Under the pieces are notes generated by a model that had not been told where the DNA came from, searched no databases, and worked only from the letters and a program-made list of their open reading frames with translations. Below, piece by piece: positions 227-51,607 of a DNA stretch of 64,000 bases. The DNA lies in the NCBI GenBank assembly GCA_902786855.1, contig CADAEH010000011.1:1-64000 (forward strand), read 5' to 3'. Source of the DNA: an uncultured Eubacteriales bacterium (GTDB lineage Bacteria; Bacillota; Clostridia; Peptostreptococcales; Anaerovoracaceae). The first letter of the stretch is position 1, and each line of letters begins with the position of its first letter. The position numbers and the translations under genes are program-made.

Positions 227-277
227 ACAATCTGCAGAATGGTTCTGTTGAAAGGGAAAAGCGGTAGTGATGATACT
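227..277 (+). promoter_or_regulatory. Recurrent surface-regulon promoter, copy 1
   Basis: The segment reads ACAA, then GAATGGTTCTG, then a -35-like TTGAAA (248-253), exactly 18 nt, then GATACT (272-277) followed by ATAAAT. The same architecture occurs at 24283, 25687, 51061, 51557 and, on the minus strand, 33654. It would drive the exported protein at 391 through a leader of about 110 nt. The remaining bases between 157 and 390 show no gene I can support. Confidence 0.7.
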
Positions 278-390
278 ATAAATTCAAGATCATATACTTT
301 TATTGATATGAGAGCCTTAGATGACGAGTGGGAGGTCTGCTCTTGATAATATGGCTCAGAGCATTATTAGATTTGAGGAAAGGAGAAAAA

Positions 391-1563
391 ATGAGTGCAA
401 AACGAAATAAGATATTGTCTTTATTTTTGATTTTATCTTTGTTTGTCGGAATGGTAGGAATCTTCAATGTTGACACTACCTATGCTGCTGCAAAGAAGAA
501 AATTCATATCAAGAAGAAAACGGTTATTCTTTCAGTAGGAGAAACCTATACACAAAAGTTAATAGCCAAGAATGGTAAAACTATTAAGGCAAAAAAGGTG
601 AAATGGAAGAGCTCCAATAAGTCCGTAGCTAAAATCACTAAAAAAGGGAAGATCACAGCAGTCAGTGCCGGAACAGTTAAAATGACTGCAAAGTATAAAG
701 GAAAAAAATACAAATTCACTGTTCAGGTAATGGCAAACTCTGGACCAGTGGTACCGTCCGCACCATCAAAAAATATTAGCTTAGAAACGAAGTCGCTTGT
801 GTTGCATAAAGGGGAGACAAAAGTAATAAAAGTGACTATTGACAAATACGGGTCCTTAACAGGCTTTTCGGATAACAACAATATAGAGTGCACATGGGGC
901 GATTGGACTGGTTGGGTAGATGGAAAAAATTCTATTTATTTGAATGTGACAGGAGTTGTTGCTGGCAAGTCTAAAGTTAAAGTACACTTCACTGATGATC
1001 CCGCAAACTACGACACGTTGGATATAACTGTTAATCAAAGAAAAACCAGTCATGCTAATCCGGAACAGGCATATTCACAATTACAGAATTATATACTTGC
1101 AACCGGAAAGAAAATACAGCCTAGTGATTATATGGTTGGAGATTATTATATAGAGTCCGCAGCAACTGCAACTAAGGATCATCCAAGAATTACAATTGCT
1201 GCAGAAGAAGATAAACCGACATTAATAGTTGAGATCCAGTTCGCAGACGATGAGTTTGAGTACTGGATGGTAATGAACGCATCTGATTTAGCAAAGAATG
1301 TTAATCAGTTTAATATGAGCCAACCGGGACTTTTTAGCACAAATTATTGGGGAGATATCTATATAGATAAGTACAGCGGACAGCTTTCAGATAATAATGG
1401 AGGTCTGGTCAGGATCAAAAAAACTGGACCGATAGTTGTTACAGATAGCAATGAGCTGATGCGTGTTTATACATTCGTCAGGAAATCAATACTTGCGGTT
1501 GACGATTATCTTTACGATGAAACAGGGTATGATTTGGTTGATCTCGGTTATTTATATATATAA
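391..1563 (+). CDS. Exported Big_2 (bacterial Ig-like) surface protein
   Basis: The product is a 390-residue predicted secreted protein. ATG 391 is chosen over an upstream in-frame start at 328 because AGGAGA lies just before it and a canonical signal peptide then begins at the N-terminus (KRNK, hydrophobic core, cut near TYAAA). Residues about 35-115 form a Lys-rich Big_2 fold with the hallmark SSNKSVAKI and GKITAVSAGTV segments. The C-terminal half is unassigned. The signal peptide is nearly identical to that of the gene at 51738, and both proteins end in a similar DLGYLYI or DLGFLLWD segment, so they are paralogues. Both genes also share the recurrent promoter. A function in adhesion or wall association is inferred. 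Confidence 0.85.
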   Translation: MSAKRNKILSLFLILSLFVGMVGIFNVDTTYAAAKKKIHIKKKTVILSVGETYTQKLIAKNGKTIKAKKVKWKSSNKSVAKITKKGKITAVSAGTVKMTAKYKGKKYKFTVQVMANSGPVVPSAPSKNISLETKSLVLHKGETKVIKVTIDKYGSLTGFSDNNNIECTWGDWTGWVDGKNSIYLNVTGVVAGKSKVKVHFTDDPANYDTLDITVNQRKTSHANPEQAYSQLQNYILATGKKIQPSDYMVGDYYIESAATATKDHPRITIAAEEDKPTLIVEIQFADDEFEYWMVMNASDLAKNVNQFNMSQPGLFSTNYWGDIYIDKYSGQLSDNNGGLVRIKKTGPIVVTDSNELMRVYTFVRKSILAVDDYLYDETGYDLVDLGYLYI

Positions 1564-1636
1564 ACTGGACTATATTTCATAATCCGTAGAAACAGAGAGC
1601 AGTTACCAAGTCTCAGTCATGACAAACAATCCCACA

Positions 1637-1676
1637 CCAGCCGGCTCAGCGAGCCGGCTGGTAATTTCTTCTTTTT
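1637..1676 (+). terminator. Rho-independent terminator
   Basis: CCAGCCGGCTC and GAGCCGGCTGG form a perfect 11-bp stem around a 3-nt loop, followed by a T-rich tract. It ends the transcript of the surface protein at 391. Confidence 0.9.
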
Positions 1677-1738
1677 AGGGAATAAATATTTAACCAAAAG
1701 CGAATAACCGTGTAAAAAACACGCAAAATGCGATTTGA

Positions 1739-1767
1739 TTGACATGTTATTAAATTTAATATATAAT
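1739..1767 (+). promoter_or_regulatory. Consensus sigma-A promoter
   Basis: TTGACA (1739-1744), a 17-nt spacer and TATAAT (1762-1767) match the consensus exactly. Transcription would begin near 1774, which excludes the in-frame ATG at 1772 as start for the downstream ATPase and supports ATG 1814. Such a strong promoter suggests constitutive expression of the ATPase/TOPRIM pair. Confidence 0.9.
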
Positions 1768-1813
1768 CTCGATGCATTTATTGAGATGGGAATATATAGA
1801 AGTGGTGATAGTT

Positions 1814-3268
1814 ATGGAAGCAATGAAAGCACACGATTTTATTACAGAAGAGCATGGAATCAATCTGCCAACTGTAAGAATAAAAAAAGTTATTCTTGAT
1901 GACTTTAAAAGTGTAGGACACGGGGAAATAGTTTTTAGTTGCGGAAGAGAATTTGTTCCTTATGGTACGCAGGCAGATATCCTTGGAATCTATGGGCAGA
2001 ATGGTTCTGGCAAAACAGCATTTATTGAAGCATTATCGATTCTTGGGCGCTTGATGGCAGGAGCGAGAGTACCAAGTGTATATGCTGAATGTGTTTCTGT
2101 TGATAAAGAGTATGCAAGGATTGAATGCATTTTTGATTTGCAATATCCGGATGGCATTAGGCGAGAAGCTTCTTATTCCTTTTGTATGTCCAACACTCCG
2201 CTGACAAAAGAAGAAATTGAAGAAAGACATAAAGAAAAAGCGGATGAAACTCTTATTCCCGACGAAGAGAGCAAAGTAACGATATTCAATGAGAAGGTCT
2301 CTTTGTTGTGGGAATCTGTTTCCAAACGACAGCCGATTATTGATACTTCATCAGAAGATGTTCCATTTATACCTGCCACCAAGAGGAAAGAACTGGTTGG
2401 AGGAGGAACCAAGGTTCTGATTCCACTTGAAGTAAACAAGAGACTTGCGAAAGATAAATCACGATCTTTTATTTTTATGAAAGAAACAATGGAAATGTTT
2501 GAAGATCATAACAATTTCTCAATTCCTTTCAAAGTCCTTGTTGAGTTAAGATATTATGCACGCTACTATCTGCATGTTGTAGATACAAAATCATCTGGCT
2601 TCATAAGACTTAATTTTGCTATGCCTATATATACTAGAAATGGCAGAATGCTGTTTAAAGTTAATAATCCAGAAACTATACCTGTAAAATTTCTTGAAGA
2701 AATAAAGGGTGATCTGAATCACATAAGTGCAGTTCTAGAACAACTAGTACCCGGTCTGACCATTGGCATGAAAGAAATCTCTCAGACTCTAGATAAAGAA
2801 GGTGAACCAGCATCTCTTTGTATGCTTATGGCCTATAGGGATGGAAAGGAACTGCCCTTAAGAGATGAGTCAGATGGTGTAAGAAAAATAATATCAGTTT
2901 TGAGCTTAATTATAGATGCATATAATGATCAGTCCGTAACAGTTGCAATTGATGAATTTGATGCTGGTATATTTGAGTATCTGCTTGGTGAGATACTTCA
3001 GGCACTCGAAGAGTCCGGCACAGGACAATTCATTTTTACATCGCACAATCTCAGACCTCTTGAAGTGATCAACAGGAAATATCTCTACTTTACAACTACT
3101 AACCCTGATAATCGTTATATACGTCTGAAAAACATTTCAGCAACTAACAATCTTAGGGATACATATTTCCGGGAGATCATACTTAGTGAGCAGGAAGAGG
3201 AGCTCTACAACAAGACTAAGCGCTTTAAAATTGTTTCTGCACTAAAGAAAGCAGGAGGCGTTTACTGA
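1814..3268 (+). CDS. AAA15/AAA21-type (OLD/ABC-like) ATPase of a two-gene defence-like operon
   Basis: The product has 484 residues. A Walker A motif GQNGSGKT lies at residues 61-68 and a Walker B at about 376-383 (VAIDEFDAG, D380/E381), preceded by an ESDGVRKI signature-like segment and followed by a TSHN sensor-like motif. This order is typical of SMC/ABC-related ATPases found in anti-phage systems. It overlaps the next gene by one base (TGATG), so the two are translationally coupled. The arrangement, ATPase plus small TOPRIM partner, resembles PARIS (AriA/AriB), AbiL or Gabija-like systems, in which the ATPase senses infection and the TOPRIM protein is the effector. Assignment to a named system is not possible from sequence reading alone. 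Confidence 0.85.
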   Translation: MEAMKAHDFITEEHGINLPTVRIKKVILDDFKSVGHGEIVFSCGREFVPYGTQADILGIYGQNGSGKTAFIEALSILGRLMAGARVPSVYAECVSVDKEYARIECIFDLQYPDGIRREASYSFCMSNTPLTKEEIEERHKEKADETLIPDEESKVTIFNEKVSLLWESVSKRQPIIDTSSEDVPFIPATKRKELVGGGTKVLIPLEVNKRLAKDKSRSFIFMKETMEMFEDHNNFSIPFKVLVELRYYARYYLHVVDTKSSGFIRLNFAMPIYTRNGRMLFKVNNPETIPVKFLEEIKGDLNHISAVLEQLVPGLTIGMKEISQTLDKEGEPASLCMLMAYRDGKELPLRDESDGVRKIISVLSLIIDAYNDQSVTVAIDEFDAGIFEYLLGEILQALEESGTGQFIFTSHNLRPLEVINRKYLYFTTTNPDNRYIRLKNISATNNLRDTYFREIILSEQEEELYNKTKRFKIVSALKKAGGVY

Positions 3269-4053
3269 TGGGGAAGAGGCCTAAAAGGAAAATAGTTTTG
3301 TTTCTTGTAGAGGGCAAGTCTGATCGGGAAGCTCTTAGTATTGCTATATCAGAACTATATGACAGAATTGATCCGAATATTGAAGTGTTCTTCCCTGTTA
3401 TCAGAGATGAAGGAGTTGAGAGAGGCGGAGATATAACATCAACTTTTTTTATCAATAGCCGGGGAAAGGAACGATGGATTCATTCAGACAATATAGAGGA
3501 AGCGCTTTACACACTCTTTCTGGAGGACTTCTTCGATAAAGAGAAAATTTTGCCTAAAGATATTGCGGGTATAGTCCAGATTGTTGATACAGATGGAGCA
3601 TTTATACCTGATGACAAAGTTATCTTCGATGAAAATATGTCTAAGGATGATAAACCGATATATACAGAAACCGAGATCCGGTGTGTAAATGCGGAACACA
3701 TTAAAAAACGCAACGAACAGAAGAGCAAGAACCTAAATCATCTGAGCAGCATCAAAACTATAAAGGTTAAACAGAAGACAGTGCCATATTCAATATACTA
3801 TTTTTCCTGCAACCTTGATCATTTCCTTCACAACGATGCTAACCTTGAGCATTCATTGAAAATCAAAAGAGCAAAAGAATTTGCAGGAGAGTACATTGAT
3901 AAAACTGAGGCTTTTGTAAAATGCATAAATGACAACCCAGGCACAGTGCAAGATATGGATTACGCACAGTCATGGGAATTCATAAAACAGGATTTGAATT
4001 CACTTGAGAGACATACGAATTTGAATATCCTGCTACAGGAACTATGCAAATAG
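3268..4053 (+). CDS. TOPRIM-domain putative nuclease effector partner of the ATPase
   Basis: The product has 261 residues. The N-terminal strand ends in LVEGKSD (E15), the typical TOPRIM glutamate motif, and IVQIVDTDG supplies the acidic pair D107/D109. These are the metal-binding landmarks of TOPRIM folds in OLD, primase and topoisomerase proteins. The central region is rich in charged residues and carries a YYFSCNLDHFLH segment. The start codon overlaps the stop codon of the ATPase, which implies a stoichiometric complex. RloB-like, AriB (DUF4435) and AbiLii-type proteins are the nearest functional analogies. A nuclease role triggered by phage is inferred from the pairing, not seen. Confidence 0.7.
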   Translation: MGKRPKRKIVLFLVEGKSDREALSIAISELYDRIDPNIEVFFPVIRDEGVERGGDITSTFFINSRGKERWIHSDNIEEALYTLFLEDFFDKEKILPKDIAGIVQIVDTDGAFIPDDKVIFDENMSKDDKPIYTETEIRCVNAEHIKKRNEQKSKNLNHLSSIKTIKVKQKTVPYSIYYFSCNLDHFLHNDANLEHSLKIKRAKEFAGEYIDKTEAFVKCINDNPGTVQDMDYAQSWEFIKQDLNSLERHTNLNILLQELCK

Positions 4054-4183
4054 GTTGGGTAATATAATACGACATTAGTGTTAAGGTCAGGAGATTTTAG
4101 CTATTGTCGATTTTCAACCGATGCTAACAATGGAGAACCATAATTGAAATTATTTTCCCATAAAAAGAAACTGGTGACTATAT

Positions 4184-4981
4184 ATGAAAGAGCAGGCCAT
4201 TAACAAGATTATATATTTTGACAAAGAAACTATTAGCAATATCTTGCAGGAAAAGAATAGAGGCGCATTATCACACCAATCAGACACTTCATACACCATA
4301 AATAACAGCGGTAATATATCTGCAAAAACAAATAATAAAATAAACCTGAACGTTCCTTTCCTTGCCAGAGTAGGATTCATGTTATCAGGTTCTATAGATG
4401 CTGGGTATATTGTCAGTCGCAATAGTATAACAACAGTTTCATCAACAGAAATCTCTGAATTTGAAAAAATAAAGCCGTCGTTATCAGTTTTTAAGAATGT
4501 CCAACTTTATGATATTGAAAACTCTTCCACATCATTTAGAGTAGCCGGAGGCTATATGCGGATGTTGAAGGCGGGCTTTGATGAAGATGTTGACCCGAAG
4601 GAATTCATGGCTGTGATGAATAATTATGATGGCTATGATACTTATAAAACTAGTGAAAATATATATGTTAGATTTAATAACACTGCTTTTATTAGTAACT
4701 ATAAGAGAAATGATTTGTTGATGACAACATTAACTTTATACTGCATTCATGTAGGCAGGTTCGACAGAGATCGTTTTGATTTCAAGAAAGAGATTTCTAA
4801 AATGAATCAAATAATAAGTGATACAGAAAAGCCACAAACACTTGATGAGGTCTATCCTCCCCAATATGTACCTGAGACAACAGATTTGAATTATAGCGAG
4901 CGGGACATGAATAGTAACAATCAAGTAGATCTCTACGATGTTTTATATGCATGCATTATGTTGGAGGATAAGGATGAATAA
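4184..4981 (+). CDS. DUF6414-like protein, first gene of a pair with a Clp-like ATPase
   Basis: The product has 265 residues and no signal peptide or membrane segment. The opening IIYFDKETISNILQEKNRG, the following Asn-rich SGNISAKTNN stretch and the VSSTEISEFEK segment resemble the DUF6414 family as I remember it, a group of unknown function scattered in accessory DNA. The C-terminus contains SNNQVDLYDVLYACIMLED, which looks like a short helical partner-binding tail. Its last 8 bases overlap the downstream AAA+ gene, so the two are almost certainly co-translated. A GGTGA sits just upstream of the ATG and is a weak ribosome binding site. The family assignment is tentative. Confidence 0.6.
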   Translation: MKEQAINKIIYFDKETISNILQEKNRGALSHQSDTSYTINNSGNISAKTNNKINLNVPFLARVGFMLSGSIDAGYIVSRNSITTVSSTEISEFEKIKPSLSVFKNVQLYDIENSSTSFRVAGGYMRMLKAGFDEDVDPKEFMAVMNNYDGYDTYKTSENIYVRFNNTAFISNYKRNDLLMTTLTLYCIHVGRFDRDRFDFKKEISKMNQIISDTEKPQTLDEVYPPQYVPETTDLNYSERDMNSNNQVDLYDVLYACIMLEDKDE

Positions 4982-6107
4982 AAAGCGGTCATACCATTTA
5001 GTAATAGGATCTGGCACCTATTTTGATGGAGTTGTTAATGATGTGTTACAGAAAAAAACAACGAAAAGTTTTATGGATCTTGTTAAAGAATCTGATGCAA
5101 ATAGAAACGCTCATTCATGTAAAAAAATAGAGGCACAAAATGTCATTGTAAAGAATAATCATTATCATGGAATAGTGGAAGCTGCTCATGATCGACTGGG
5201 ACCTCTTATTGAAGAACTCACATCAGAAGATGCTACAATTATGGTTCATAATCCACCAAAGGTGTTGATGGATTATATTAACGAGAAAAATGAAAGATCT
5301 CTAATAAACTTAACAATTCATCGTGAAAAATATTCAATAGAGAAAAATAGTAAAATGTTCTCATACAGAATATCAAAAATTGAGGAGTTGATTATTGGTC
5401 AGAGTGAAGCCATACAAGAAATAAGTAAAAGCTTGTGGTATCTTACTAATACAAATAGAACTAATCCATATGTAATTATGCTTTATGGTAATAGTAGTTT
5501 GGGAAAGACTGAACTAGTACGGGAAGTGGCAAAACACTTTTATGACGGGAAAGTGCTGGAAAAGCATTTGTCAATGTTTAAGAATCCAATATACTCAGAC
5601 TATTTTTTTGGTGAATCACCAAATCGGAGAAGTCTTGGGTATGATCTGTTAGAAAGAGAGTCTAATTTAATCTTCTTTGATGAATTAGATAAATGTCCAG
5701 AACACTTTTACTCTGCTTTTTATACACTCTTTGACAATGCAATGTTTAAAGATGCCACCTATGATGTTGATGTATCTGGTATTGTGATTGTCTTAACTTC
5801 AAATTATCATACTAAATCCGAGATGATGAAGCAGCTTGGGCTACCTATCTTTTATCGTATAGACAAATTCATACATTTCAAAGATTTTGACAGCGATACG
5901 ATTCATAGCCTTGTAGTGAAAGAGATTCATGAACGAAGGGATGATTATTGTAAGAAGTATACAGAGGAGCAAATGTATGCATTGATAAGTCCAAACATTT
6001 CAGTTGTTGGTGAAAATGCGAGAACTATCAAATACAAAATTCAGGAAGAAATTGAGAATATAATGTTTGAGGATGTTTCGGGCATTAATAGTAAATCCCT
6101 TATATAA
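4974..6107 (+). CDS. Clp/AAA_2-type AAA+ ATPase with a unique N-terminal domain
   Basis: The product has 377 residues. ATG 4974 is chosen because GGAGGATAAGG precedes it; it overlaps the previous gene by 8 bp. Residues about 1-120 have no recognised domain. From about 135 there is a ClpA/ClpB-type module: IIGQSEAI, Walker A GNSSLGKT at 172-179, Walker B LIFFDELDK at 232-240 (D236/E237), sensor-like VLTSN, and a short C-terminal lid. Only one AAA domain is present and there is no visible ClpP-binding loop or middle domain, so this is not a housekeeping Clp chaperone. Together with the DUF6414-like gene it forms a compact unit of unknown role in an accessory island. A remodelling or sensing function in defence is inferred. 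Confidence 0.75.
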   Translation: MNKKRSYHLVIGSGTYFDGVVNDVLQKKTTKSFMDLVKESDANRNAHSCKKIEAQNVIVKNNHYHGIVEAAHDRLGPLIEELTSEDATIMVHNPPKVLMDYINEKNERSLINLTIHREKYSIEKNSKMFSYRISKIEELIIGQSEAIQEISKSLWYLTNTNRTNPYVIMLYGNSSLGKTELVREVAKHFYDGKVLEKHLSMFKNPIYSDYFFGESPNRRSLGYDLLERESNLIFFDELDKCPEHFYSAFYTLFDNAMFKDATYDVDVSGIVIVLTSNYHTKSEMMKQLGLPIFYRIDKFIHFKDFDSDTIHSLVVKEIHERRDDYCKKYTEEQMYALISPNISVVGENARTIKYKIQEEIENIMFEDVSGINSKSLI

Positions 6108-9399: not shown

Positions 9400-9688
9400 C
9401 TGGACGATATACCCATTCATAGGCTATAATTTATATATCAATCAGACATAGACGGCATGTGGCATTTTGCTGTATGTATATCATCCTGGTTGGTGCTTTG
9501 GGCCATTTAGTACCGTATGGCTGCGGGGCATCAAGCAGAGAGATAGCGGACAATAAAATGTTGATATGATATCTATGAGTGACCGGCGGAATGGGCGTGC
9601 TGCATGTGCAGCAGGTTGATTTGCGGTTTTGCATAGACATGGGACATGCCTCTGTGTATTCACAGTGATACGAAGGAGGTATTTTATT

Positions 9689-11140
9689 ATGTCAAAAAAT
9701 AGTAATGAACACGCGAGCAGCAACAACTATTCGAGACGGAACGGACGGCCGGGCAAAGGATCGCGCAAGCCTTGGCCTAAGGGCTGTGTGTGGCCGGAGC
9801 CAATTCCTATGGGAGAGGGTATCGCATGGGATGTTGAGCTTGCTGAAGGGCTGGACCTTGACGAAGAGGGCAATGATCTGCTTGAGATCAGGGCGTATAT
9901 GGATGAGCTTGTTGAAAGAGGCATATTGCATGAGGATTATTCGCTGAATCAGGATTATGATTATGAGGATTATGATCCCGAGATACTGGATTATCCTATC
10001 GATGAGGCAGACGAATTCATGCCTGTCATTGGCGAGGAGTACTGGCTTGATGGATTTGATCTTGAAATGTGGGAAGAGGATCTCAGCGAGCACGTGAACT
10101 TGCTCAAGATAGATAATAGCGGCGCTGATACAGTCAGTGAGATCACCAGTATTATCGGATACGAGTTCATCAATGAGAATCTGCTTAGGCAGGCGTTTAC
10201 ACGCAGAGCTTTTGCAGCAGAGTACGGTCTGACAGGATGCAGCGAGGAACTGGAATTCATCGGCGACTCTGCGCTGAATATGTCGGTTACACGCGAGATT
10301 GCTTTGCATCTGGCTAAAGTGGTCCCGGAGCTGACAGCTGCGCCATTTACCTCCGGATATAACGAAGGGGATTTCTCGAAAATAAGGAGCCAGTTCGTCT
10401 GCAAAGAGCATCTGGAGGAGTGCGCGCGCAAAACAGGACTTGATCGGTACATTCTGTATGGCTCAGATGAGCAGCCGGGAGAGAGCAGCAGAGAGGACAT
10501 GATGGAGGCGCTCATTGGCGCTGTTGCGATAGACTCCGGGTGGAACTGGGATGATATAGACAACGTGATCGACCGGCTGATTCGTGTGCAGCTCGGGAAT
10601 CCGGATCTCCTCCTTAAGGAGACTTTCTATGAGCTGTTTAATGCGTGGCATCAGAAGCATTTTGGCTGCATGCCTGAGTATGAAATCAGTGGATACGTCT
10701 CATACTGCTGTACAATGAGATTTTTCATACCGGAAAATGATAAAGGCATCCGTACCGATCAGCGTGTTGATGTCTGGGCTTATACACGAAGCAAGGCTCG
10801 GGAGCGCGCGGCAGAGATGGCGTATTGGTTCGTGATCAATAGGGGTCTATGGATCAATCTGAAGGACGCCAATGTGGTGCCAAGCAGAGATGAGAGCATC
10901 AACCAGCTGCAGGAGCTGTATCAGAAAAAGTATGTCGAAGACAGGCCTGAGTACAGATTCCGTGAAAGCTATGACGGTGAATGGCACTGTGACTGCGAGT
11001 GCGGTGGTGTGAGCGGCTGGGGATACGGTCCGAGCAAAACTGCTGCGAAGAAGAAAGCCGCATATATGGTGATCATCCGCCTCCTGGACAGCGCCGGGCT
11101 GTGCAAGGACGAGTGGAAAGAAGAAGCTGAGCATTTTTAG
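9689..11140 (+). CDS. Enlarged RNase III with acidic N-terminal extension and two dsRBD-like regions
   Basis: The product has 483 residues, about twice the usual bacterial RNase III. ATG 9689 follows AAGGAGGT. Residues 1-25 are basic and low-complexity, and about 45-150 are strongly acidic (EDYDPEILDYPIDEADEF). The RNase III domain spans about 155-300: EELEFIGDSAL with E186, E189, D193, and EDMMEALIGA with D270 and E273, matching E. coli E38, E41, D45, D114 and E117, so it should be catalytically active. A degenerate dsRBD-like stretch (FNAWHQKHFG ... KARERAAEMA) is followed by a clear dsRBD at about 400-470 (PEYRFRESYDGEW ... GPSKTAAKKKAA). It is not next to the usual smc/ftsY/acpP genes and is probably an additional, specialised dsRNA nuclease. 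Confidence 0.88.
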   Translation: MSKNSNEHASSNNYSRRNGRPGKGSRKPWPKGCVWPEPIPMGEGIAWDVELAEGLDLDEEGNDLLEIRAYMDELVERGILHEDYSLNQDYDYEDYDPEILDYPIDEADEFMPVIGEEYWLDGFDLEMWEEDLSEHVNLLKIDNSGADTVSEITSIIGYEFINENLLRQAFTRRAFAAEYGLTGCSEELEFIGDSALNMSVTREIALHLAKVVPELTAAPFTSGYNEGDFSKIRSQFVCKEHLEECARKTGLDRYILYGSDEQPGESSREDMMEALIGAVAIDSGWNWDDIDNVIDRLIRVQLGNPDLLLKETFYELFNAWHQKHFGCMPEYEISGYVSYCCTMRFFIPENDKGIRTDQRVDVWAYTRSKARERAAEMAYWFVINRGLWINLKDANVVPSRDESINQLQELYQKKYVEDRPEYRFRESYDGEWHCDCECGGVSGWGYGPSKTAAKKKAAYMVIIRLLDSAGLCKDEWKEEAEHF

Positions 11141-11446: not shown

Positions 11447-11610
11447 GCTCTATTGCATGATCTGGGGTCAAACAACAAGTGGTGTTATGTTAGCGCGCAG
11501 CAAATTAGTCAAAATTGGTCAAATTATCTGAGCCCTGACATTTAGAGCAGCTGTCCTTGATGTCATAAAATGGTTTTTTGAAAGTGCATTTAAAAAAAAC
11601 AATTATTTAA

Positions 11611-11650
11611 GAATGGTTTTATTGAAAGCCAAAATTTTATCAGTGATAAT
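11611..11650 (+). promoter_or_regulatory. Recurrent surface-regulon promoter, variant copy with 17-nt spacer
   Basis: GAATGGTTTTA is followed by TTGAAA (11622-11627), 17 nt and GATAAT (11645-11650). A second, weaker AATGGTTTTTTGAAAG occurs just upstream at about 11570-11584, so the region carries two tandem partial copies. It would serve the zinc-ribbon gene at 11868 or the truncated frame it overlaps. Confidence 0.5.
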
Positions 11651-11846
11651 ATCAAATAAAATATGGCATACGCCGCAAGGCGCACATCATTCATGGAATA
11701 CTGATTATGATTCATATCGTGTTTCGGTCATCTGGGGAACGGTGTATCTTAAATTAGGAAGCAAGAAATATCGTCTAAATGTAGACAGTGATAATAAACC
11801 GACCTCGATCGAAGGATACGGAGAAAAACAAATAACGCTTTATTGA
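11613..11846 (+). pseudogene. Truncated frame fused to a promoter; probable gene remnant
   Basis: The frame has 77 codons, but its only ATG (11613) lies inside the promoter motif, where the first residues MVLLKAKIL are translated promoter DNA. From about residue 18 the sequence (WHTPQGAHHSWNTDYDSYRV ... YGEKQITLY) looks like the end of a genuine beta-rich protein, with no recognised family. There is no ribosome binding site. The simplest reading is a deletion that joined the promoter to the 3' end of a former gene; a small functional protein using an unusual start cannot be excluded. Confidence 0.45.
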
Positions 11847-11867: not shown

Positions 11868-12392
11868 ATGGAAACTAAAAAATGCCCTATGTGTGGAATC
11901 GATATTGAAGCAGGTCTGGATACATGTCCTGCTTGCGGTTTCAGATTTGAGTCGGATCAGGCCACAGAAGCACAGGCCCCGGAGGTTGAATTTCAGGCTC
12001 AGAAGAATGCTGCACCTACAGCTTCTGCAAGTCTGCTGCCGAAGTCAAAACTCGACAGCATGTCACAGAAGATCGATATGATCTATAATGTGATAATCGG
12101 GATAGGAGTAATAGCGATCATTCTTGGATTTGTATGTTTTTCCAAGGATACCGGCTCATATATCGAGAACCTCGCATATGGAGGAGATGCTTACACAGGT
12201 ATCCAGAATGCGGCTGCCGGCACCGGCAGAAACGTTCATTATCTGGCAGAGATCGTAGCTTTTGGCTTTGGATCGGTCGACCTCATTGCAGGACTCACTC
12301 TTTGCGCTTTCGGCCTGATGAAGAAAAAGGTACTGGCAAAAGAAGTGGCTGATACAGAAAAGTCGATATCAGAAGAACTGCCAGAGATCTAG
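11868..12392 (+). CDS. Zinc-ribbon membrane protein
   Basis: The product has 174 residues with a strong AAAGGAG before ATG 11868. The N-terminus is a zinc ribbon (CPMCGIDI ... CPACGFRF) typical of zf-ribbon_3 and double zinc ribbon membrane proteins. A polar linker leads to a membrane helix at about 73-92 (IIGIGVIAIILGFVCF) and a second hydrophobic segment at about 130-150 (AFGFGSVDLIAGLTLCAFGLM), between which lies a short Gly/Ala-rich extracytoplasmic loop. The charged tail should be cytoplasmic. No enzymatic motif is visible. Together with the zinc-ribbon protein at 33600 it may belong to the regulon defined by the recurrent promoter. Confidence 0.75.
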   Translation: METKKCPMCGIDIEAGLDTCPACGFRFESDQATEAQAPEVEFQAQKNAAPTASASLLPKSKLDSMSQKIDMIYNVIIGIGVIAIILGFVCFSKDTGSYIENLAYGGDAYTGIQNAAAGTGRNVHYLAEIVAFGFGSVDLIAGLTLCAFGLMKKKVLAKEVADTEKSISEELPEI

Positions 12393-24225: not shown

Positions 24226-24282
24226 TATGCTGTAAAACAGCACTGAAACCGTGGAGAACTCTAGAAGAAAATGCAAAGAAAA

Positions 24283-24333
24283 ACATTTCAGGGAATACCT
24301 TTGTTGAAAGAAAAAAGCAGTGCCGGCGATACA
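24283..24333 (+). promoter_or_regulatory. Recurrent surface-regulon promoter, copy 2
   Basis: ACATTTCAGGGAATACCTTTG is followed by TTGAAA (24304-24309), exactly 18 nt and GATACA (24328-24333). It precedes the Big_2/FN3 protein at 24487 by about 150 nt. The upstream words GCAAAGAAAAACA also recall copy 1. Confidence 0.65.
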
Positions 24334-24486
24334 ATAAAAACAAGGTTATACGTTTTGTTATATAAAAGCGTTTGCTTGTGCGAGGAAACAAATTGAATAT
24401 CTGAATGGAAAACTGACTATTCAGAAATAATTGATTTATTTGTTGAATAGTAAATACAAAAGAAGAGAAAGGGGAAAGTGACTTAA

Positions 24487-25664: not shown

Positions 25665-25686
25665 GTATGGAAAAATGCACAACAAA

Positions 25687-25737
25687 ACAAGCCGCGGAAT
25701 GGTTTTGTTGATAGTTAAAACCCATGTTGCTGATACT
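25687..25737 (+). promoter_or_regulatory. Recurrent surface-regulon promoter, copy 3
   Basis: ACAAGCCGCGGAATGGTTTTG is followed by TTGATA (25708-25713), exactly 18 nt and GATACT (25732-25737), then ATAGAATCAAGAT. It precedes the exported protein at 25807. Confidence 0.7.
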
Positions 25738-25806
25738 ATAGAATCAAGATTTGTTTTTCTGATAATAGATAATCTACATTATCTTTTTGATTAGGAGGGA
25801 GTAACT

Positions 25807-26507: not shown

Positions 26508-26688
26508 TTTTGCCGATATTTCAAGCTTTCATGCATCTCAGGCCGCTTAATATGCATTCCGGGGTAATGATCATTGAATCGCAGTTTACCATGCTAGTAT
26601 CTAATTACACAAAAGCTGATCGATCATAGATAGAGCTGAAGGATATAAAAGCTTGTTCTCGGAACATGAAATGACGGAGGGGAATAAA

Positions 26689-27336
26689 ATGCATAAAAGA
26701 ATAATGTCGTTCTTCCTTGTACTGCTGATCGCAGTTGCTTTTTTGCCTGCGCAGGCGTCGGCTGCTTCGGGCAAAGTCAAAATGACCGGATATAATAAAG
26801 TGCTGAAATCAGGAAATGTTGTATATTGTGCAGGCGCCGAGGGGATTTACCGGGTCGGAGTTGACACTGCAGGAAAGGTGACAGGCATAAAGCTGCTTTA
26901 TTGGGATGAGTCATCTGGTGAATACAGCTATTTCTACGGTATGAAGCTTAAGGGCAAGTACTTATATGCCCAGTATGAAACAGAGGGAACACCTTATGGC
27001 CTTTGCAGAGTTCATGTTGTAACAGGAAAGTGCAAGGAACTTGCCAGTGTAGATTGTGAAGGATCCGTAGAATATGCAATAAAAGGAAATAAAATTTACT
27101 ATAAAGCCCTTGGCAGCAAAAAAGGCAGAGTAATGAATCTGAATGGAAAGTCAAAGAAGCGGACTTCGGTCAAACCCAAAATGACTCATAAAAAATCAAA
27201 TGCGGATGGTTATACCGTAATTATGGCCGAACATGAAATCCCTTGCCTGGATGAAGAAACTGATGAACAATATTTGGTAACCACATACCTTAAGACCCCG
27301 GCCGGCACCTTCAAACTCGGATCACATATCTACTAA
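26689..27336 (+). CDS. Exported propeller-like protein, copy A of a duplicated pair
   Basis: The product has 215 residues. ATG 26689 is preceded by GGAGGGG, which rules out the upstream in-frame ATG at 26653. The signal peptide (RIMSFFLVLLIAVAFLPAQA) and the mature start SAASGKVKMTGYNKVLKSGN are almost identical to the gene at 28867. Blades such as VVYCAGAEGIYRVGV, MKLKGKYLYAQYETEGTPYGL and YAIKGNKIYYKA follow a DUF5050-like pattern. It ends in YLKTPAGTFKLGSHIY. The pair flanks the gene at 27569, so the duplication is not strictly tandem. The function is unknown; a sensor or surface ligand binder is possible. Confidence 0.8.
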   Translation: MHKRIMSFFLVLLIAVAFLPAQASAASGKVKMTGYNKVLKSGNVVYCAGAEGIYRVGVDTAGKVTGIKLLYWDESSGEYSYFYGMKLKGKYLYAQYETEGTPYGLCRVHVVTGKCKELASVDCEGSVEYAIKGNKIYYKALGSKKGRVMNLNGKSKKRTSVKPKMTHKKSNADGYTVIMAEHEIPCLDEETDEQYLVTTYLKTPAGTFKLGSHIY

Positions 27337-28866: not shown

Positions 28867-29505
28867 ATGCATAAACGAATAATGTCTTTCTTACTGGTAC
28901 TTATGATCGCAGTTGCTTTTCTGCCTGCTGAGGCGTCAGCTGCTTCGGGCAAAGTCAAAATGACCGGATGCGATCAGGTGCTGAAATCAGGTAATATTGT
29001 ATACTGCGCAGGCTCCGAGGGGATCTATCAGGTCGGAGTCGACAATGCAGGAAGAGTGACCAACGTAAGAATGCTTCACAGAAGTGAGACAATGGGTAAT
29101 TATAGCTATTTCTACGGCATGAAGCTCAAGGGCAAATACTTATATGCCCAGTATATGACAGAGGGAACACCGTTCGGCCTCTGCAGAGTTCATGTTGCAA
29201 CAGGAAAGTACAAGACCCTTGCCAGTGTAAATGACAAAGGATCTGTAGAATACGCTATAAAGGGAAAGAAAATTTACTTCAAAGCCAAGAGCAGCAAAAA
29301 AGGTAAAGTAATGAAACTCAATGGGAAGTCCAAGAAAAAGACTTCAACCAAGCCTAAAATGATCCATGTAAATTCAAATGATCCCGGTTATTCCCTGATA
29401 ATAGCCGAACAGGAGATCCCTCACCCTGACTATGATGAGTATTTAGAAACCACATACCTCAGGACTCCGGCCGGTACCTTCAAACTCGGATCACATCTTA
29501 GCTAG
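28867..29505 (+). CDS. Exported propeller-like protein, copy B of a duplicated pair
   Basis: The product has 212 residues with AAGGAGG before ATG 28867. It is nearly identical in domain order and largely in sequence to the gene at 26689: the same signal peptide, the mature start AASGKVKMTGCDQVLKSGN, and the blades YFYGMKLKGKYLYAQYMTEG and YAIKGKKIYFKA. It differs mainly at ligand-loop-like positions and before the C-terminus, and ends in YLRTPAGTFKLGSHLS. The downstream hairpin is duplicated as well. The pattern suggests a fairly recent duplication with divergence. Confidence 0.8.
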   Translation: MHKRIMSFLLVLMIAVAFLPAEASAASGKVKMTGCDQVLKSGNIVYCAGSEGIYQVGVDNAGRVTNVRMLHRSETMGNYSYFYGMKLKGKYLYAQYMTEGTPFGLCRVHVATGKYKTLASVNDKGSVEYAIKGKKIYFKAKSSKKGKVMKLNGKSKKKTSTKPKMIHVNSNDPGYSLIIAEQEIPHPDYDEYLETTYLRTPAGTFKLGSHLS

Positions 29506-32724: not shown

Positions 32725-33600
32725 TTAATCTCTGTCTATCTTTTGAACATGAATTAAAGGAAGTGTAATTGTCGCTCCCAAAGTAGATGTATATGAGTAC
32801 AATCCATCAGAAACTCCGTAAAATGTTACATTATCATCCTCAAGTATTCTCGACTCTGTGAGGCTAGGATCATAGTATATATATACTGTGTCATCCCAGC
32901 CATCAGAAGATGTATTGACTCTCATATCAACCTCAGTGTCGCTCTCCAAAACCTGAACAACCTTTCCATGTCCCTTTATTTTCTCACCTTTGTGCTTATC
33001 AGGATCTCTGGCAAGATCTTCAAAGCTCATGTCAGAATAGTCTTCTTCTGCTGTGAACTCTTCAAAAGTGATCTCCGGTTCCGGTTCTGGTTCAGGTTCT
33101 GGCTCTGGTTCCGAGGTTGTTTCTTCAACAGGTTCCTCACTTGTCGTAGATGTATCACTAGTGGTTGAAGAATCATCTTTACTACTTCCAAAAGCGCCGA
33201 CGAGGCAAATAAGTACAAGAACAGCTGCAGCTATTATTGCAATCTTTTTTATACTCATCTTATTCTTTTTTGCCTCGGCAATCTTTTTCTCTGTCCCACT
33301 GATACTGGTCTGAATTGATGCAGGTGCAACATTCTTGATCTTATCATCTCCACTGGTTTCTTTTGCATCATCGATATCAGTGTCTACCTTAATCTCTTCT
33401 GCATACTTAGTATCTGGTGCGATATCGCCGACATTGATTAGTGGTTCAATTGGTGTCCCACACTCTGGACAGAATTTACTATTTGATTCAATTCCGCACT
33501 TTGGGCAAACACGTATCTCATCAACATCAGACAGATTTGTTCCGCACTCTGGACAGAACTTACTATTTGTTATTTTTCCACAACTAGGACACTTTTTCAT
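32725..33600 (-). CDS. Double zinc-ribbon membrane protein with Glu-Pro repeat and extracytoplasmic domain
   Basis: The product has 291 residues. Two zinc ribbons open the protein (CPSCGKI ... CPECGTNL and CPKCGIE ... CPECGTPI). After an acidic linker, a membrane helix lies at about 118-138 (IKKIAIIAAAVLVLICLVGAF). Outside follow a Ser/Thr-rich stretch, an (EP)n repeat and a folded domain of about 110 residues (EEDYSDMSFEDLARDPDKHK, then IKGHGKVVQVLES, then TVYIYYDP) that resembles OB-like domains of exported Clostridial proteins. ATG is preceded by AAAGGAGG on its strand. Its promoter is a member of the recurrent family, the only one found on the minus strand. Confidence 0.82.
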   Translation of the reverse strand: MKKCPSCGKITNSKFCPECGTNLSDVDEIRVCPKCGIESNSKFCPECGTPIEPLINVGDIAPDTKYAEEIKVDTDIDDAKETSGDDKIKNVAPASIQTSISGTEKKIAEAKKNKMSIKKIAIIAAAVLVLICLVGAFGSSKDDSSTTSDTSTTSEEPVEETTSEPEPEPEPEPEPEITFEEFTAEEDYSDMSFEDLARDPDKHKGEKIKGHGKVVQVLESDTEVDMRVNTSSDGWDDTVYIYYDPSLTESRILEDDNVTFYGVSDGLYSYTSTLGATITLPLIHVQKIDRD

Positions 33601-33653
33601 AGATAACCTCCTTTGCAGTTGCCTCCACTATTTAAACTATATCTAAATCAAAG

Positions 33654-33700
33654 GATATAGCTTATTGCAAAAAGACTTTTCAAAAAAATCATTCCAAATA
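33654..33700 (-). promoter_or_regulatory. Recurrent surface-regulon promoter, minus-strand copy
   Basis: Reading the minus strand, GGAATGATTTTT is followed by TTGAAA (complement of 33678-33683), exactly 18 nt and TATATC (complement of 33654-33659). Spacing from GGAATG to the -35 is also 6 nt, as in the other copies. It lies about 55 nt before the start codon of the zinc-ribbon gene. Confidence 0.65.
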
Positions 33701-33779
33701 CAATTGTTTTTTTAAAATGCAATTTTGCAATTTCATTTGAAATACTATGCATTGTAAAGAAAAGACGGAGAATAAATAG

Positions 33780-43047: not shown

Positions 43048-43069
43048 TATGCAAAATAGCGGACAATGG

Positions 43070-43098: not shown

Positions 43099-43187
43099 AT
43101 CAATGCTGCCAAAATGTTGCTGATAACAACATTTGCGCAGATCGATGGAGATTGATACGAATTGAAGAAAGAGAAAGAGAAATCTGT

Positions 43188-44672
43188 ATGAAAAAGCTTT
43201 CGCTCGAACTGCTTTCCCAGGCAGTCACTACAAACAGGAAATCACAGAACATGACGCAGGCTGATCTGTCTGTTGCTACCGGCATCAACAGATCCATCCT
43301 CTCCAGACTCGAGTCGCAGGACTATACGCCTTCAGTCGACCAGCTGATCTCTCTCAGCGAGGTGCTTGGCTTTGATCTCGCATCCGTTTTAACTGACGAT
43401 GCGACAGATGCGGGGGCTTCCGGCAAGGATTACCAGGACATCCCGCGCATGAAGATCACAGTTGCCGGCGTCGGCTACGTAGGCCTTTCACTTGCAGTCC
43501 TGCTCGCACAGAACCACGATGTGACTGCGATCACAACGACCCAGTCCAAAGCAGACAATCTCAACCGATTCATCAGTCCGATCAGGGACGAAGAGATCGA
43601 GAGATTCTTCGGTGAGGTCAGAAGCGGCGAGCGCGAGCTGAGCCTCCGCACTACTACTGACAAAGCTGCTGCTTACAGAAGTGCGGATCTTGTCATCATA
43701 GCTACTCCGACCAACTATGACGAAGTCGACCAGTTCTTTGACACCAGTGCGGTGGAGGATGCGATCGAGCAGACCCTGGCTGTGAACCCGGATGTCATGA
43801 TGGTCATCAAGTCCACCGTTCCGGTTGGCTATACAGACAGTGTTCGTGAGAAGTATGGTATCGACAACATCATGTTCAGTCCGGAATTTCTCCGTGAGTC
43901 CAAAGCTCTCTATGACAACCTGCATCCAAGCAGGATCGTAGTCGGAGCATACGACCACCAGAGGGAAGCTGCGCAGCTTTTCGCTGATCTGCTGCTCGAA
44001 GGTATGCGCACAGAGGAGCGTCGCGCCGGAGCGGTTCCTCAGGATATCAGGACACTGATCGCACACCCGACCGAAGCCGAAGCGATCAAGCTTTTTGCCA
44101 ATACATATCTGGCAGTAAGAGTAGCCTATTTCAATGAGCTGGACACATATGCGCAGAAGAAGGGCCTTGACACCCAGCAGATCATCGAGGGCGTCAGCCT
44201 GGATCCCCGTATCGGCGGACACTACAACAATCCGAGTTTTGGATACGGCGGTTACTGCCTGCCTAAGGACACCAAGCAGCTGCTTGCCAACTACAGGAAT
44301 GTGCCGCAGACCATGATCGAAGCTGTAGTTAAGTCCAATACAGTTAGGAAGGACTTCATCGCTGGGCAGATCATCGCTAAGAATCCTGATACAGTCGGCG
44401 TCTACCGCTTGACCATGAAGTCCAACTCAGATAACTTCCGCGCTTCCGCCATTCAGGGCGTCATGAAGCGCATCAAAGCCAAAGGGATTCCAGTCATAGT
44501 TTACGAACCAACCCTCGAAGACGGCAGCGAATTCTTCCGCAGCAAAGTCGTCAACGACCTCGATGCTTTCAAAGCACAGAGCGACGTCATCATCGCCAAC
44601 CGTTTTGATGAAAGTGTCCTCGGCGACGTAGCAGACAAAGTATACACAAGAGACCTGTTCGGCAGAGATTAA
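43188..44672 (+). CDS. ugd: UDP-glucose 6-dehydrogenase fused to an N-terminal XRE-type HTH domain
   Basis: The product has 494 residues. Residues about 10-65 are a Cro/CI-type helix-turn-helix ([32 protein letters not shown]). From about 86 the sequence follows E. coli-type Ugd closely: [72 protein letters not shown], and [20 protein letters not shown] with catalytic Cys357. It oxidises UDP-glucose to UDP-glucuronate, the substrate of the epimerase at 39920. Stand-alone Ugd has about 390 residues and no HTH, so the fusion suggests an enzyme that also binds DNA, possibly autoregulating. AAGAGAAA before the ATG is a weak ribosome binding site. Confidence 0.92.
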
Positions 44673-46593: not shown

Positions 46594-46654
46594 TTAGTAT
46601 CCGGCAAAACATCTCTGAGACTTTAGGAAGCCGCGCAAGAAAATACAGAGAAAT

Positions 46655-46706
46655 ACAAGCAGAGAATGTTTTTTTGACGATTTTTGTTACATGCGCATGC
46701 TATTAT
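46655..46706 (+). promoter_or_regulatory. Recurrent surface-regulon promoter, variant
   Basis: ACAAGCAGAGAATGTTTTTT is followed by TTGACG (46674-46679), then TATTAT (46701-46706) at 21 nt. The upstream half matches the recurrent promoter, but the spacing to the -10 differs. GTTACAT (46686-46692) and ATGTAAC (about 46716-46722) form an inverted repeat across the -10, a possible operator. About 180 nt of leader follow. Confidence 0.45.
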
Positions 46707-46884
46707 ATAAAAGTAATGTAACGCAATCTCTTGTTTGTCGATCGATTGAATTCTTGCAGCTGATTGCTGCTTTCAAGACAGGCGTTGCATCTGCAGACTG
46801 GGATAATCTCATAATATATTTCGGTAGGACAAGGGATATATCAATTAGTTACGGGCGTTGATAGGGATAATCAGAGAGGTGTAT

Positions 46885-48294
46885 ATGAAAAGGAAGATTT
46901 TTGCAATTTTAATGGCACTGACACTGGTGCTGACGTACATGCCCGCACTGGCATTTGCGGAAGGCGGAGCTGTATCAAAAGCGGAGGCCAAGAAGGCTGC
47001 CGCAGCGAAGACTGTTGAAACCGGTAATCCGGAAAAGGCAAAAGGCGGTAAACTCCTTGAATCAAAGAAGGAGATGTCTGTAAAAGCAGCCGATTATGAT
47101 GACGAAGAGTATTACAACGGCACATACAGCGGCAAGCCGGAATTCTATACAGCAGACTATACAGACGATGACGGGGAACTCATGTATTACTATGACATTG
47201 AGCCGAATTCGGGAGACCGCGTTACTGTTGAGGTAGAAGACGAAACATTCACTTACGTATGGACACAGGATGATGATGGTGACTGGTATTTTGAGATTCC
47301 GGGAAATCCGGATGACTGGCTCATGATCGATGAGGTCTATGTAAATGATGATCAAACAGAGGCCGGAATGCTCGTTTATAGAAAGGTCTGGGATGACGTA
47401 GAAGAAGAATATCTTACTGACTGGAGTGCAGTCATTTTTGTAGACAAATTCAGTGTAAGCAATACTGTTAAGAGTATTTCTTTCCAGCCGTCAACAATAT
47501 ATCTTGTTGCAGAAGACATCATATGCTATGACGAAGGCATACCGTATTATTCCTTCTTAGAGAGAAGCACACACAAGGCCGGAGGAGAAACCTGGAAATC
47601 ACCATATGCTGTAGGCGATAAACTGACTGTACAATATGTTAACGGGATCACACAGACGTTTGTAGATGCGGATATGAGTTTCGTTGACTATGATGAAGAA
47701 GATGAAGCTTATTATACTTACTATAATGACTGGTTTAAGAAAGGCGACAATTATATCAGAGCATATGTAGACGACGATGTACTTACACTCGGCAATAATA
47801 CAGTCTCAATATCCTGGCATGGAGTTACTGCCAAAATCAATGTCGTAGTAGAGACAGCTGCACAGAAAAAGGCCAAAGACGACGCTGCCAGAAAGGCTGC
47901 TGCTGAAAAAGCAGCCGCAGCAAGGAGAGCTGCAGCAGAAAAGGCAAGAATTGCTGCAGAATTCGCTGCAAACGGTTATGGCTATATCGATCCTTCACTG
48001 CCTAAGGTCAAGTTCCAGAAGCCAAAAGCTGCTAAAAAGAACTTTACTGCCAAGTGGAAGAAGATGGGCAAAAAAGATCTGAAAAAAATCAAAGGCATTG
48101 AAGTAGAATACAGTCTCACACCTGATTTCAAGAATCCGGTATTCAAGTCAACAGGTAAGAAGAAGGCCAATGTCAAGATCAAGAAGCTCGCTTCCAAGAA
48201 GACTTATTACGTAAGAGCACATTCATATGTAATAAGAAACGGAGTCAAGTATGTCTCCTATTGGTCAACACCTAAAAAGGTAAAGATCAAATAG
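46885..48294 (+). CDS. Exported acidic surface protein with Ala-rich helix and C-terminal basic FN3 domain
   Basis: The product has 469 residues. ATG 46885 follows AGAGAGGTG; an upstream in-frame start at 46858 would disrupt the signal peptide. The signal peptide ends near LAFAEGG. The mature protein is rich in Asp, Glu and Tyr up to about residue 330 (DYTDDDGELMYYYDIEP), then has an Ala/Lys-rich helix (QKKAKDDAARKAAAEKAAAA) and a FN3 domain of the KPKAAKK type (FQKPKAAKKNFTAKWKKMGK ... WSTPKKVKIK). The central domains are not recognised. The helix may act as a stalk that places the acidic domain away from the basic FN3 tail. Confidence 0.82.
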   Translation: MKRKIFAILMALTLVLTYMPALAFAEGGAVSKAEAKKAAAAKTVETGNPEKAKGGKLLESKKEMSVKAADYDDEEYYNGTYSGKPEFYTADYTDDDGELMYYYDIEPNSGDRVTVEVEDETFTYVWTQDDDGDWYFEIPGNPDDWLMIDEVYVNDDQTEAGMLVYRKVWDDVEEEYLTDWSAVIFVDKFSVSNTVKSISFQPSTIYLVAEDIICYDEGIPYYSFLERSTHKAGGETWKSPYAVGDKLTVQYVNGITQTFVDADMSFVDYDEEDEAYYTYYNDWFKKGDNYIRAYVDDDVLTLGNNTVSISWHGVTAKINVVVETAAQKKAKDDAARKAAAEKAAAARRAAAEKARIAAEFAANGYGYIDPSLPKVKFQKPKAAKKNFTAKWKKMGKKDLKKIKGIEVEYSLTPDFKNPVFKSTGKKKANVKIKKLASKKTYYVRAHSYVIRNGVKYVSYWSTPKKVKIK

Positions 48295-50904: not shown

Positions 50905-50926
50905 CAACACGATGTGCTGAAAACAC

Positions 50927-50958: not shown

Positions 50959-51060
50959 GTATGCGAAAAACAGTTCCGAAGGCTTTAACTGTATAGAATC
51001 TTGTGTCGCTTGCAGAGAAATAAGCACTTCAGGAAAGGATATGAAAAAATACATATTAAA

Positions 51061-51111
51061 ACAAGCGCGGGAACGGTTTTGTTGAAAGTAAAACACTGTC
51101 TTGCTGATACT
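51061..51111 (+). promoter_or_regulatory. Recurrent surface-regulon promoter, copy 4
   Basis: ACAAGCGCGGGAACGGTTTTG is followed by TTGAAA (51082-51087), exactly 18 nt and GATACT (51106-51111), then ATAAATTCAGGAT. It drives the small HTH gene at 51155, about 35 nt downstream of the probable transcript start. Confidence 0.72.
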
Positions 51112-51154
51112 ATAAATTCAGGATTGTGCATTTTCGGTAACAGGGGAGTTTGCT

Positions 51155-51328
51155 ATGAGTGATAATCGTTTTACTGAAAAAGAAAGAATCAGGATAGCTA
51201 AACTTCATGTTGAGGAAGGGAAATCTCAGCGAGTCCTTTCCATCGATTATGGTGTTTCCCAGAGCTCTATCGGCAGATGGGTAGCCAAGTATCGAAATGA
51301 AAAAATGACAAAAAATAATAAAAAATAG
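51155..51328 (+). CDS. Lone 57-residue HTH_Tnp_1-type protein
   Basis: The product has 57 residues with CAGGGGAG before ATG 51155. The sequence RFTEKERIRIAKLHVEEGKS, then VLSIDYGVSQSSIGRWVAKYR matches the helix-turn-helix of IS3-type OrfA/transposase_8 proteins. There is no OrfB, no terminal inverted repeat and no target duplication nearby, and the C-terminal leucine zipper of OrfA is absent; it ends in KMTKNNKK. It carries an intact regulon-type promoter and ribosome binding site, so it is probably expressed. It could be a domesticated DNA-binding regulator or an IS remnant captured by the promoter. Confidence 0.75.
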   Translation: MSDNRFTEKERIRIAKLHVEEGKSQRVLSIDYGVSQSSIGRWVAKYRNEKMTKNNKK

Positions 51329-51458
51329 AACTTATTGTATCGATTGCAACAATTCCACTGCGAACATGGACGCGAATAAAATAACGGAAAAAAGATTTAC
51401 ACTCTAATATCAGATCATTAATTGCAGTAAGTAACAATCAGCGAGAAGCTTGGCATAT

Positions 51459-51492
51459 GGGGTAGGCGGCTGAAACGGCCTACCCCGTTTGT
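51459..51492 (+). terminator. Rho-independent terminator
   Basis: GGGGTAGGC and GCCTACCCC form a 9-bp stem around 10 nt, followed by GTTTGTAT. The remaining bases between 51329 and 51737 hold only this hairpin and the promoter below. Confidence 0.8.
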
Positions 51493-51556
51493 ATGGGATA
51501 AAAAAGTTCTGCTACATTAGTTTTTATAACAGACTTTGAAAAAAGAACATAACAAA

Positions 51557-51607
51557 ACAATATAGAGAACGGTCTTGTTGAAAGGAAAAAACATCACTTC
51601 TGATACT
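51557..51607 (+). promoter_or_regulatory. Recurrent surface-regulon promoter, copy 5
   Basis: ACAATATAGAGAACGGTCTTG is followed by TTGAAA (51578-51583), exactly 18 nt and GATACT (51602-51607), then ATAAAAATTAAGAT. It precedes the FN3 protein at 51738. Confidence 0.72.

Follow-up and report, generated by a model that had tools for sequence, protein, structure and literature searches.

An overlong-spacer promoter class before exported-protein, zinc-ribbon, HTH and kinase-linked genes of an uncultured Anaerovoracaceae bacterium: a possible activator-dependent regulon

The first 64,000 nucleotides of contig CADAEH010000011.1 (assembly GCA_902786855.1, from an uncultured Eubacteriales bacterium of the Anaerovoracaceae), which we refer to as the window, carry a promoter-like sequence that recurs with fixed spacing before several genes, and the question is whether these sites mark a set of genes that is switched on together and what would read them. 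An earlier note on this DNA had listed six copies and three variants and had proposed a surface-protein regulon. Our analysis favors, with moderate confidence, a small regulon whose promoters are of sigma-A type, have an overlong spacer and would depend on a trans-acting activator. Four things are directly seen: the class as a sequence, its spacing, its repeated occurrence in front of homologous genes of other species, and an excess of exported proteins among its targets. The proposal of a shared fixed-spacing architecture before exported proteins is supported and extends to congeners. The term surface-protein regulon is too narrow, because zinc-ribbon proteins, lone helix-turn-helix (HTH) genes and the family of g52910, the window gene that starts at 52910, are targets as well.

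All six sites were found, but they are not six equal copies: five form one tight class and the sixth, on the minus strand at 33694, is weak. The five strong copies all lie on the plus strand (GAAYG positions 237, 24293, 25697, 51071 and 51567) and share a module of 89 bp, with 78% mean column identity across 89 ungapped columns, in which the blocks CA, AAAACA, GAA, TGTTGA and GATAC are fully conserved and the spacers between them have diverged at fixed length. A matrix made from any four copies scored the fifth at 56-76 bits, while with the full five-copy matrix the top non-member in the window reached -12.0 and the top of 15 Markov-simulated windows -8.5. We used R1, a profile built from the five strong copies, to scan the whole genome (2,897,730 bases in 62 contigs, 87% complete; the window's contig, C11, is 71 kb). 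The five copies were the five best of 10 matches (E 1.8e-22 to 6.4e-18), the runners-up were 11576-11660 (E 1.3e-5) and 46636 (E 0.10), all seven in C11, and the remaining three, outside C11, came at E 2.7 or worse.

The first module (208..291, plus strand; GAATGG at 237, -10 TACTAT at 274-279; R1 E 5.8e-22) lies upstream of g328 (328-1563), an exported protein with a Big_2 domain (PF02368), and the second (24262..24347, plus; GAATAC at 24293; E 1.9e-19) upstream of g24487 (24487-25488), exported and carrying Big_2 and fn3 domains by Pfam. The third (25666..25751, plus; GAATGG at 25697; E 1.8e-22) precedes an exported protein without a Pfam match (25807-26448), the fourth (51040..51125, plus; GAACGG at 51071, -10 TACTAT at 51108-51113; E 2.7e-22) a lone 57-aa HTH gene (51155..51331, plus; HTH_Tnp_1/HTH_23 in Pfam) and the fifth (51536..51620, plus; GAACGG at 51567; E 6.4e-18) the exported fn3 protein g51738 (51738-52646; Pfam). 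The shared AT-rich history suggested in the earlier note applies to these five genes, whose G+C content is 35-37% versus 45% for the window, and not to the genes behind the weaker copies, at 40-47%. This AT richness could also mean that there is no common regulation at all and that the copies were inherited with duplicated genes, as the signal-peptide regions of g328 and g51738 (86% over 28 aa), the Big_2 domain in both g328 and g24487 and the limitation of the 89-bp form to one contig would allow. We consider this highly improbable: the strong-copy genes otherwise have no BLAST match to each other at 1e-3, the conserved blocks are split by diverged fixed-length spacers, and other species have the core in front of genes of various kinds.

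Four weaker members were analyzed with later models to which sites had been added (R2, R3 and a final matrix). The final matrix covers both promoter halves and gives 9 window sites with a score of at least 17, compared with 0.2 in simulated windows; these are the six copies and three variants of the earlier note, and 7 of the 9 were training sites, with 11611 and 33694 outside training. The variants placed near 11620, 46675 and 52785 correspond to the sites 11611, 46664 and 52773, which score 31.7, 19.7 and 29.8. Site 11611 (11576..11660, plus; GAATGG, 19-nt spacer) is upstream of a zinc-ribbon-like protein (11868-12392) whose zinc-ribbon matches are under the Pfam cut-offs. Site 46664 (46634..46712, plus; GAATGT), which R1 matched without having been built from it, reaches E 2.1e-9 with R2, being in R2 training, and precedes an exported protein (46858-48294). 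Site 52773 (52744..52821, plus; GAATGG) was likewise taken into R2 training (E 1.4e-9) and had no R1 match in the whole-genome scan; g52910 lies behind it. The minus-strand member (33645..33728; GAATGA at 33694), upstream of the zinc-ribbon protein g32725 (32725-33600, minus; Pfam), also lacked an R1 match in that scan and gave E 1.04 with R2, E 0.03 with R3 and a matrix score of 22-23. Two further sites of the same genome are C3:159147 on the minus strand, before an exported protein, and C5:2705, before a lone HTH gene that is followed by a gene SPFH-like by eye. Of 46 distinct sites scoring at least 17, 3 lie inside same-strand reading frames.

The anatomy of the class differs in part from the first description. 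When weaker window sites and the two sites on C3 and C5 are added, TGnTAnnnT emerges as the fixed point, with the TA 37 nt past the G of GAAyG. In an alignment of 25 rows, the columns without any variation (25/25) are a pair of T's in the T-run/TTGA word and, within the -10 hexamer, its T, A and final T. Because these three hexamer positions do not vary, we prefer to read the GATACT reported at exactly 18 nt as TGa-TACTAT at 20 nt; the hexamer had been read two bases early. We assembled a curated set of 47 sites from model matches and by eye, and in it TTGAxx and the hexamer, whose choice required TAnnnT beforehand, are 20 nt apart in 39/47, 21 nt in 6/47 and 19 nt in 2/47, with a TG extension before the -10 in 34. 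From its sequence, the -10 reads as a mostly extended element of sigma-A type (TGnTAnnnT) located 20 nt from TTGAAA. It has the TAnnnT of a sigma-A promoter, often after TGn, and departs from the spacer of 17 +/- 1 nt. Class-wide, the information is concentrated in TTTTnTTGA and the -10 while GAAyG is weaker; the copy at 24293 has GAATA in its place, and as the defining word of the class it was rejected, being absent from 10 of the 13 g52910-family promoters found in the genus outside the window.

The spacing was evaluated in 12 g52910-family loci (87 kb) that had been used in no model. The combination of T-run, TTGA and TAnnnT occurs in them 7 times at 20 nt, while the other 20 spacings between 10 and 30 nt give a mean of 0.35 with the hexamer at 5/6 (P 9e-8) and of 0.7 at 4/6 (P 9e-6). 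A constant two-box geometry with nothing else conserved class-wide is what one would expect of an alternative sigma factor whose -35 and -10 domains reach further apart, and the earlier note had offered such a signature as one of two explanations. We find it unsupported and think it very unlikely, as the -10 is TGnTATAAT-like and has the invariant T, A and T of sigma-A. A -10 of the sigma-D or SigE type was also considered and set aside, given the unvarying final T of the hexamer. The other explanation, an activator site, is the better of the two, although GAAyG is not class-wide and the general oddity of these promoters is the 20-nt spacer.

We searched for the class in 48 genomes of the genus and 394 of the order; the numbers of loci (L), genomes (G) and contigs (C) are our own. 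At E 0.001, R1, which is blind to gene content, had one match each in four genomes of the order besides its own. Three of these are inside genes of other families (L016, L045, L046) and one is a true relative: L044, in G352, lies 119 nt upstream of a protein that is zinc-ribbon-like and resembles g32725; a further R1 match, L017 in G023, is 112 nt before a g52910 homolog. A pattern search of the genus, likewise blind to gene content, gave 14 matches in 5 genomes, 7 of them in the window's own, and the reversed pattern gave 0. These matches include L084 (G229), 106 nt before a Big_2-like protein whose signal peptide is nearly that of g328, and L086 (G352), before another g52910 homolog; less clear are L087, which overlaps a gene start, and L082, without a gene within 400 nt. 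With R3 at E 0.05, matches were found in 26 of the 48 genus genomes, with 13 matches in the window's own genome; the E-value alone predicts about two false matches over the genus. In the order outside the genus R3 gave 12 loci, of which L198, L200, L202 and L203 are inside genes, L205 has no site and L195, L197 and L206 belong to a sister genus, the last two preceding proteins that appear by eye to be N-terminally membrane-anchored. Targets other than the g52910 family include, by eye, exported proteins (two at L142 and one each at L140, L143 and L147) and a lipoprotein-like protein (L141). By a crude signal-peptide rule of our own, 17/36 targets without the g52910 family are exported versus 85/430 background genes (P 5e-4), and 12/29 (P 0.009) when the window is left out as well. 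The scans also revealed a class site on the minus strand at G352:C94:3702-3754 (L144), with a gene of 200 aa, brxA (BREX)-like by eye, 205 nt behind it, and, in two species, weak sites with spacing shorter than that of the class before genes that look tadA-like (L075, own C1:18319 minus; L127 in G002).

The target most consistently tied to the promoter class is the g52910 family. In the window, g52910 (52910..54010, plus; 366 aa, no Pfam match) is followed by an exported protein (54042-55091, plus) and a Ser/Thr kinase with a Big_2 domain (55105-56877, plus; Pfam), which presumably form one operon with it. Residues 18-95 have a weak likeness to XRE-type HTH domains; the protein has no sequence relative in the PDB and no confident structural relative was found. 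Homologs are present in 9 of the 48 genus genomes (14 genes including the window's own), and the named carriers of such genes include Mogibacterium sp. metagenome-assembled genomes from sheep and goat gut and uncultured Clostridiales, among others. In front of all 13 other genus homologs a T-run/TTGA site is seen 72-184 nt before the protein match; of these sites, two had served in training, three reached 20.9 to 32.0 and eight lay at -1.4 to 10.3. Since those eight were accepted by eye and then entered R3 training, they are not independent support, and the hold-out tests carry the weight. In the 12 hold-out loci, 5 upstream regions score at least 15 (L166, L169, L171, L174 and L179, the last from Anaerovorax odorimutans) versus 7 of 580 random stretches. 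A kinase-like gene comes after the g52910 homolog in L165, L170, L172, L173, L176 and L178 (by Pfam in L170, by eye in the rest). L178 is a divergent pair, with a 19-nt site before g52910 and the kinase-like gene and a second site, of 20 nt, before a zinc-ribbon cluster whose first gene has no Pfam match. As sole regulator of the class g52910 was rejected, given that G229 and G405 have sites and no homolog at 1e-10.

A second family behind class sites is that of the lone HTH gene. Its profile has 5 matches genus-wide and 4 of them are directly behind a class site, at 63-84 nt: two in the window's own genome, the second copy being C5:2782-2964, and weak ones in G006 and G023. Two of these four sites were outside training, and the fifth match, part of a transposase-like gene, has no site. 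We also observed HTH frames of 42 aa (L142, G023:C4) and about 46 aa (L147, G006:C28) between a class promoter and an exported-protein gene, which look as if they were worn-down lone HTH copies. The lone HTH protein remains a candidate activator; as the sole regulator it was rejected, because G229, G352 and G405 (96, 87 and 94% complete) have sites and no match at 1e-4.

Several other features of the window were recorded. Behind the first module is an AT-rich, defence-like block (1772-6107) with an AAA_21 protein whose closest match is AbiLi (E 1.7e-26), followed by two proteins of the Dodola system, DolA (E 7e-49) and DolB (E 1e-99). The exported paralogs 26653-27336 and 28867-29505 are 73% identical, with another exported gene between them, and one of the paralogs matches DUF5050. 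At 43152-44672 an N-terminal HTH_3 is joined to a complete UDP-glucose/GDP-mannose dehydrogenase, an unusual fusion, and at 9629-11140 a 503-aa protein has a ribonuclease III domain in its middle (residues 182-305). A mobile unit was rejected, one module copy having no match in plasmids or phages and the one viral match of a relaxed pattern, inside a 418-aa phage gene, looking like chance; the relaxed pattern had no match in a database of genome contigs, and records of the window's own genome were possibly left out of these searches. A known leader RNA was also rejected, since nothing in the window reaches the gathering score of an Rfam family.

From these features we infer promoter activity, sigma-A use, dependence on an activator and co-regulation. 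The putative promoter would consist of a T-run fused to a TTGAAA-like -35, a 20-nt spacer, three nucleotides over that of sigma-A, and a mostly extended -10. On its own, sigma-A RNA polymerase would use such a promoter poorly. Activator-dependent promoters with long spacers are known, among them agr P2 and P3, described below. An activator may contact the T-run and the -35 together (about -49 to -32); in the five strong copies it could have a second contact, the CA...AAAACA block further upstream (about -70 to -56). By bending or twisting the DNA, or by holding sigma region 4, it could allow the displaced elements to cooperate. The outcome would be a small co-regulated set of genes for exported proteins of the Big_2/fn3/LRR type, zinc-ribbon proteins, small lone HTH proteins and g52910 with its kinase. 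Candidates for the activator are the HTH-like protein of the g52910 type, the lone HTH protein, the receiver-less Spo0A-like protein of the genus and a response regulator of the LytTR type.

Certain observations weigh against this activator-dependent regulon. Selection of the 47 sites was in part by eye, and the models behind most of them favour the 20-nt spacing. Upstream of the T-run, the columns without the five strong copies hold at most 0.39 bits, with the 95% null at 0.37, so that a separate activator site is not visible there. In the hold-out set 7 of the 12 regions fall under the score; of these seven, L164, L165, L173 and L176 have no site at 19-21 nt, and L170, L172 and L178 have the sites described for them elsewhere in this text. 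Some targets look unrelated to the others (GalT-, BrxA- and TadA-like, by eye), and the exclusion of the g52910 family from the export test was decided afterwards; with all targets counted, 17/51 are exported (P 0.03). Finally, R3 has intergenic matches in other families as well, in four genomes (L196, L199, L201, L204), which means that either the class is wider than the family or the model catches chance promoters.

Promoters with odd spacers can sense DNA twist, and the same sites could work without a dedicated activator, the T-run and the extended -10 offsetting the poor spacing and growth phase or osmolarity switching the genes directly through supercoiling. This would suit the conservation class-wide of the T-run, TTGA, spacer length and -10 alone, with no separate operator, as well as the mixed targets and the intergenic matches in other families. 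We hold it to be possible but rather unlikely, since the class is small (13 own-genome matches at E 0.05 or below) and tends towards exported proteins, which is more like a regulon, and since the five strong copies carry an extra conserved upstream block.

MerR-type promoters have a spacer of 19-20 nt and resemble the class in its length; column by column, the spacer of the class holds no strongly conserved sequence class-wide. The half-site of LytTR regulators has the consensus WMMGTTNRK. In the agr P2 and P3 promoters of Staphylococcus aureus, which have sigma-A-like boxes and spacers of 18 and 20 nt, AgrA sits just upstream and shortening the spacer to 17 nt raises AgrA-independent transcription, as passages of PMC4227749 describe. 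The overlong spacer is shared with AgrA promoters (same passages), and an AgrA/VirR-like LytTR response regulator could drive the class; in L170 and L172 a LytTR response-regulator gene follows the 20-nt site at 71 and 50 nt, respectively, and comes just after g52910-like and kinase genes. The class has, however, a T-run fused to its -35, a TG extension in most sites and no class-wide LytTR repeats upstream, and the half-site, in that consensus, appears in 1/47 sites, far upstream. We regard a LytTR regulator as distinctly unlikely.

The spoIIG and spoIIE promoters are sigma-A promoters activated by Spo0A, and spoIIG has a long spacer. A receiver-less Spo0A-type protein could act in a similar way on a changed 0A box (TGTTGAA for TGTCGAA) that overlaps the displaced -35; TGTTGAA is present in 13/47 sites. 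The domain PF08769 occurs in 41 of the 48 genus genomes, once in each, in open frames of 136-232 aa, with no further Pfam domain in the 4 proteins scanned, and the helix SRVERAIRHAI of the structures 1lq1 and 1fc3 is replaced by [IV]EHxIR[NT]A[IL] in the 10 proteins read. The isolated Spo0A domain binds without phosphorylation according to a portion of PMC3485338. On the other hand, canonical TGTCGAA is found in 0/47 sites, and of the box positions contacted according to the same portion of that paper, C4 is C in 0/47 and G2 is G in 20/47. G352 and G018 (87 and 82% complete) have sites and no PF08769 match, and 22 of the 48 genus genomes, many of them holding the protein, have no R3 match at E 0.05. 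Such a variant Spo0A regulon appears unlikely to us, and slightly more so the fuller version of it, in which a relic of the sporulation switch, its DNA-binding half with changed recognition residues, would have found a new use in Mogibacterium-like gut bacteria, where it would activate a surface-protein/kinase regulon through the changed box. No site is located upstream of ten of the Spo0A-like genes (best score 7.5), which gives no sign of autoregulation. The receiver-less protein adjoins an SLBB/HHH (ComEA-like) gene (L185 1558-2052; own C5:67204-67500), and our literature search for such a protein in non-sporulating Mogibacterium-like bacteria found no paper.

The activator-dependent regulon is the preferred reading. 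The regulation of genes in gut relatives of Mogibacterium seems little explored, and a literature search on Mogibacterium promoters and regulons found no paper. The class offers a clear test case for how RNA polymerase uses a 20-nt spacer. A shared promoter with an overlong spacing suggests common activation of surface and signalling genes by a helper protein, and a promoter class that can be read from the sequence would show which surface proteins are made jointly and would link a Ser/Thr kinase gene with these proteins.

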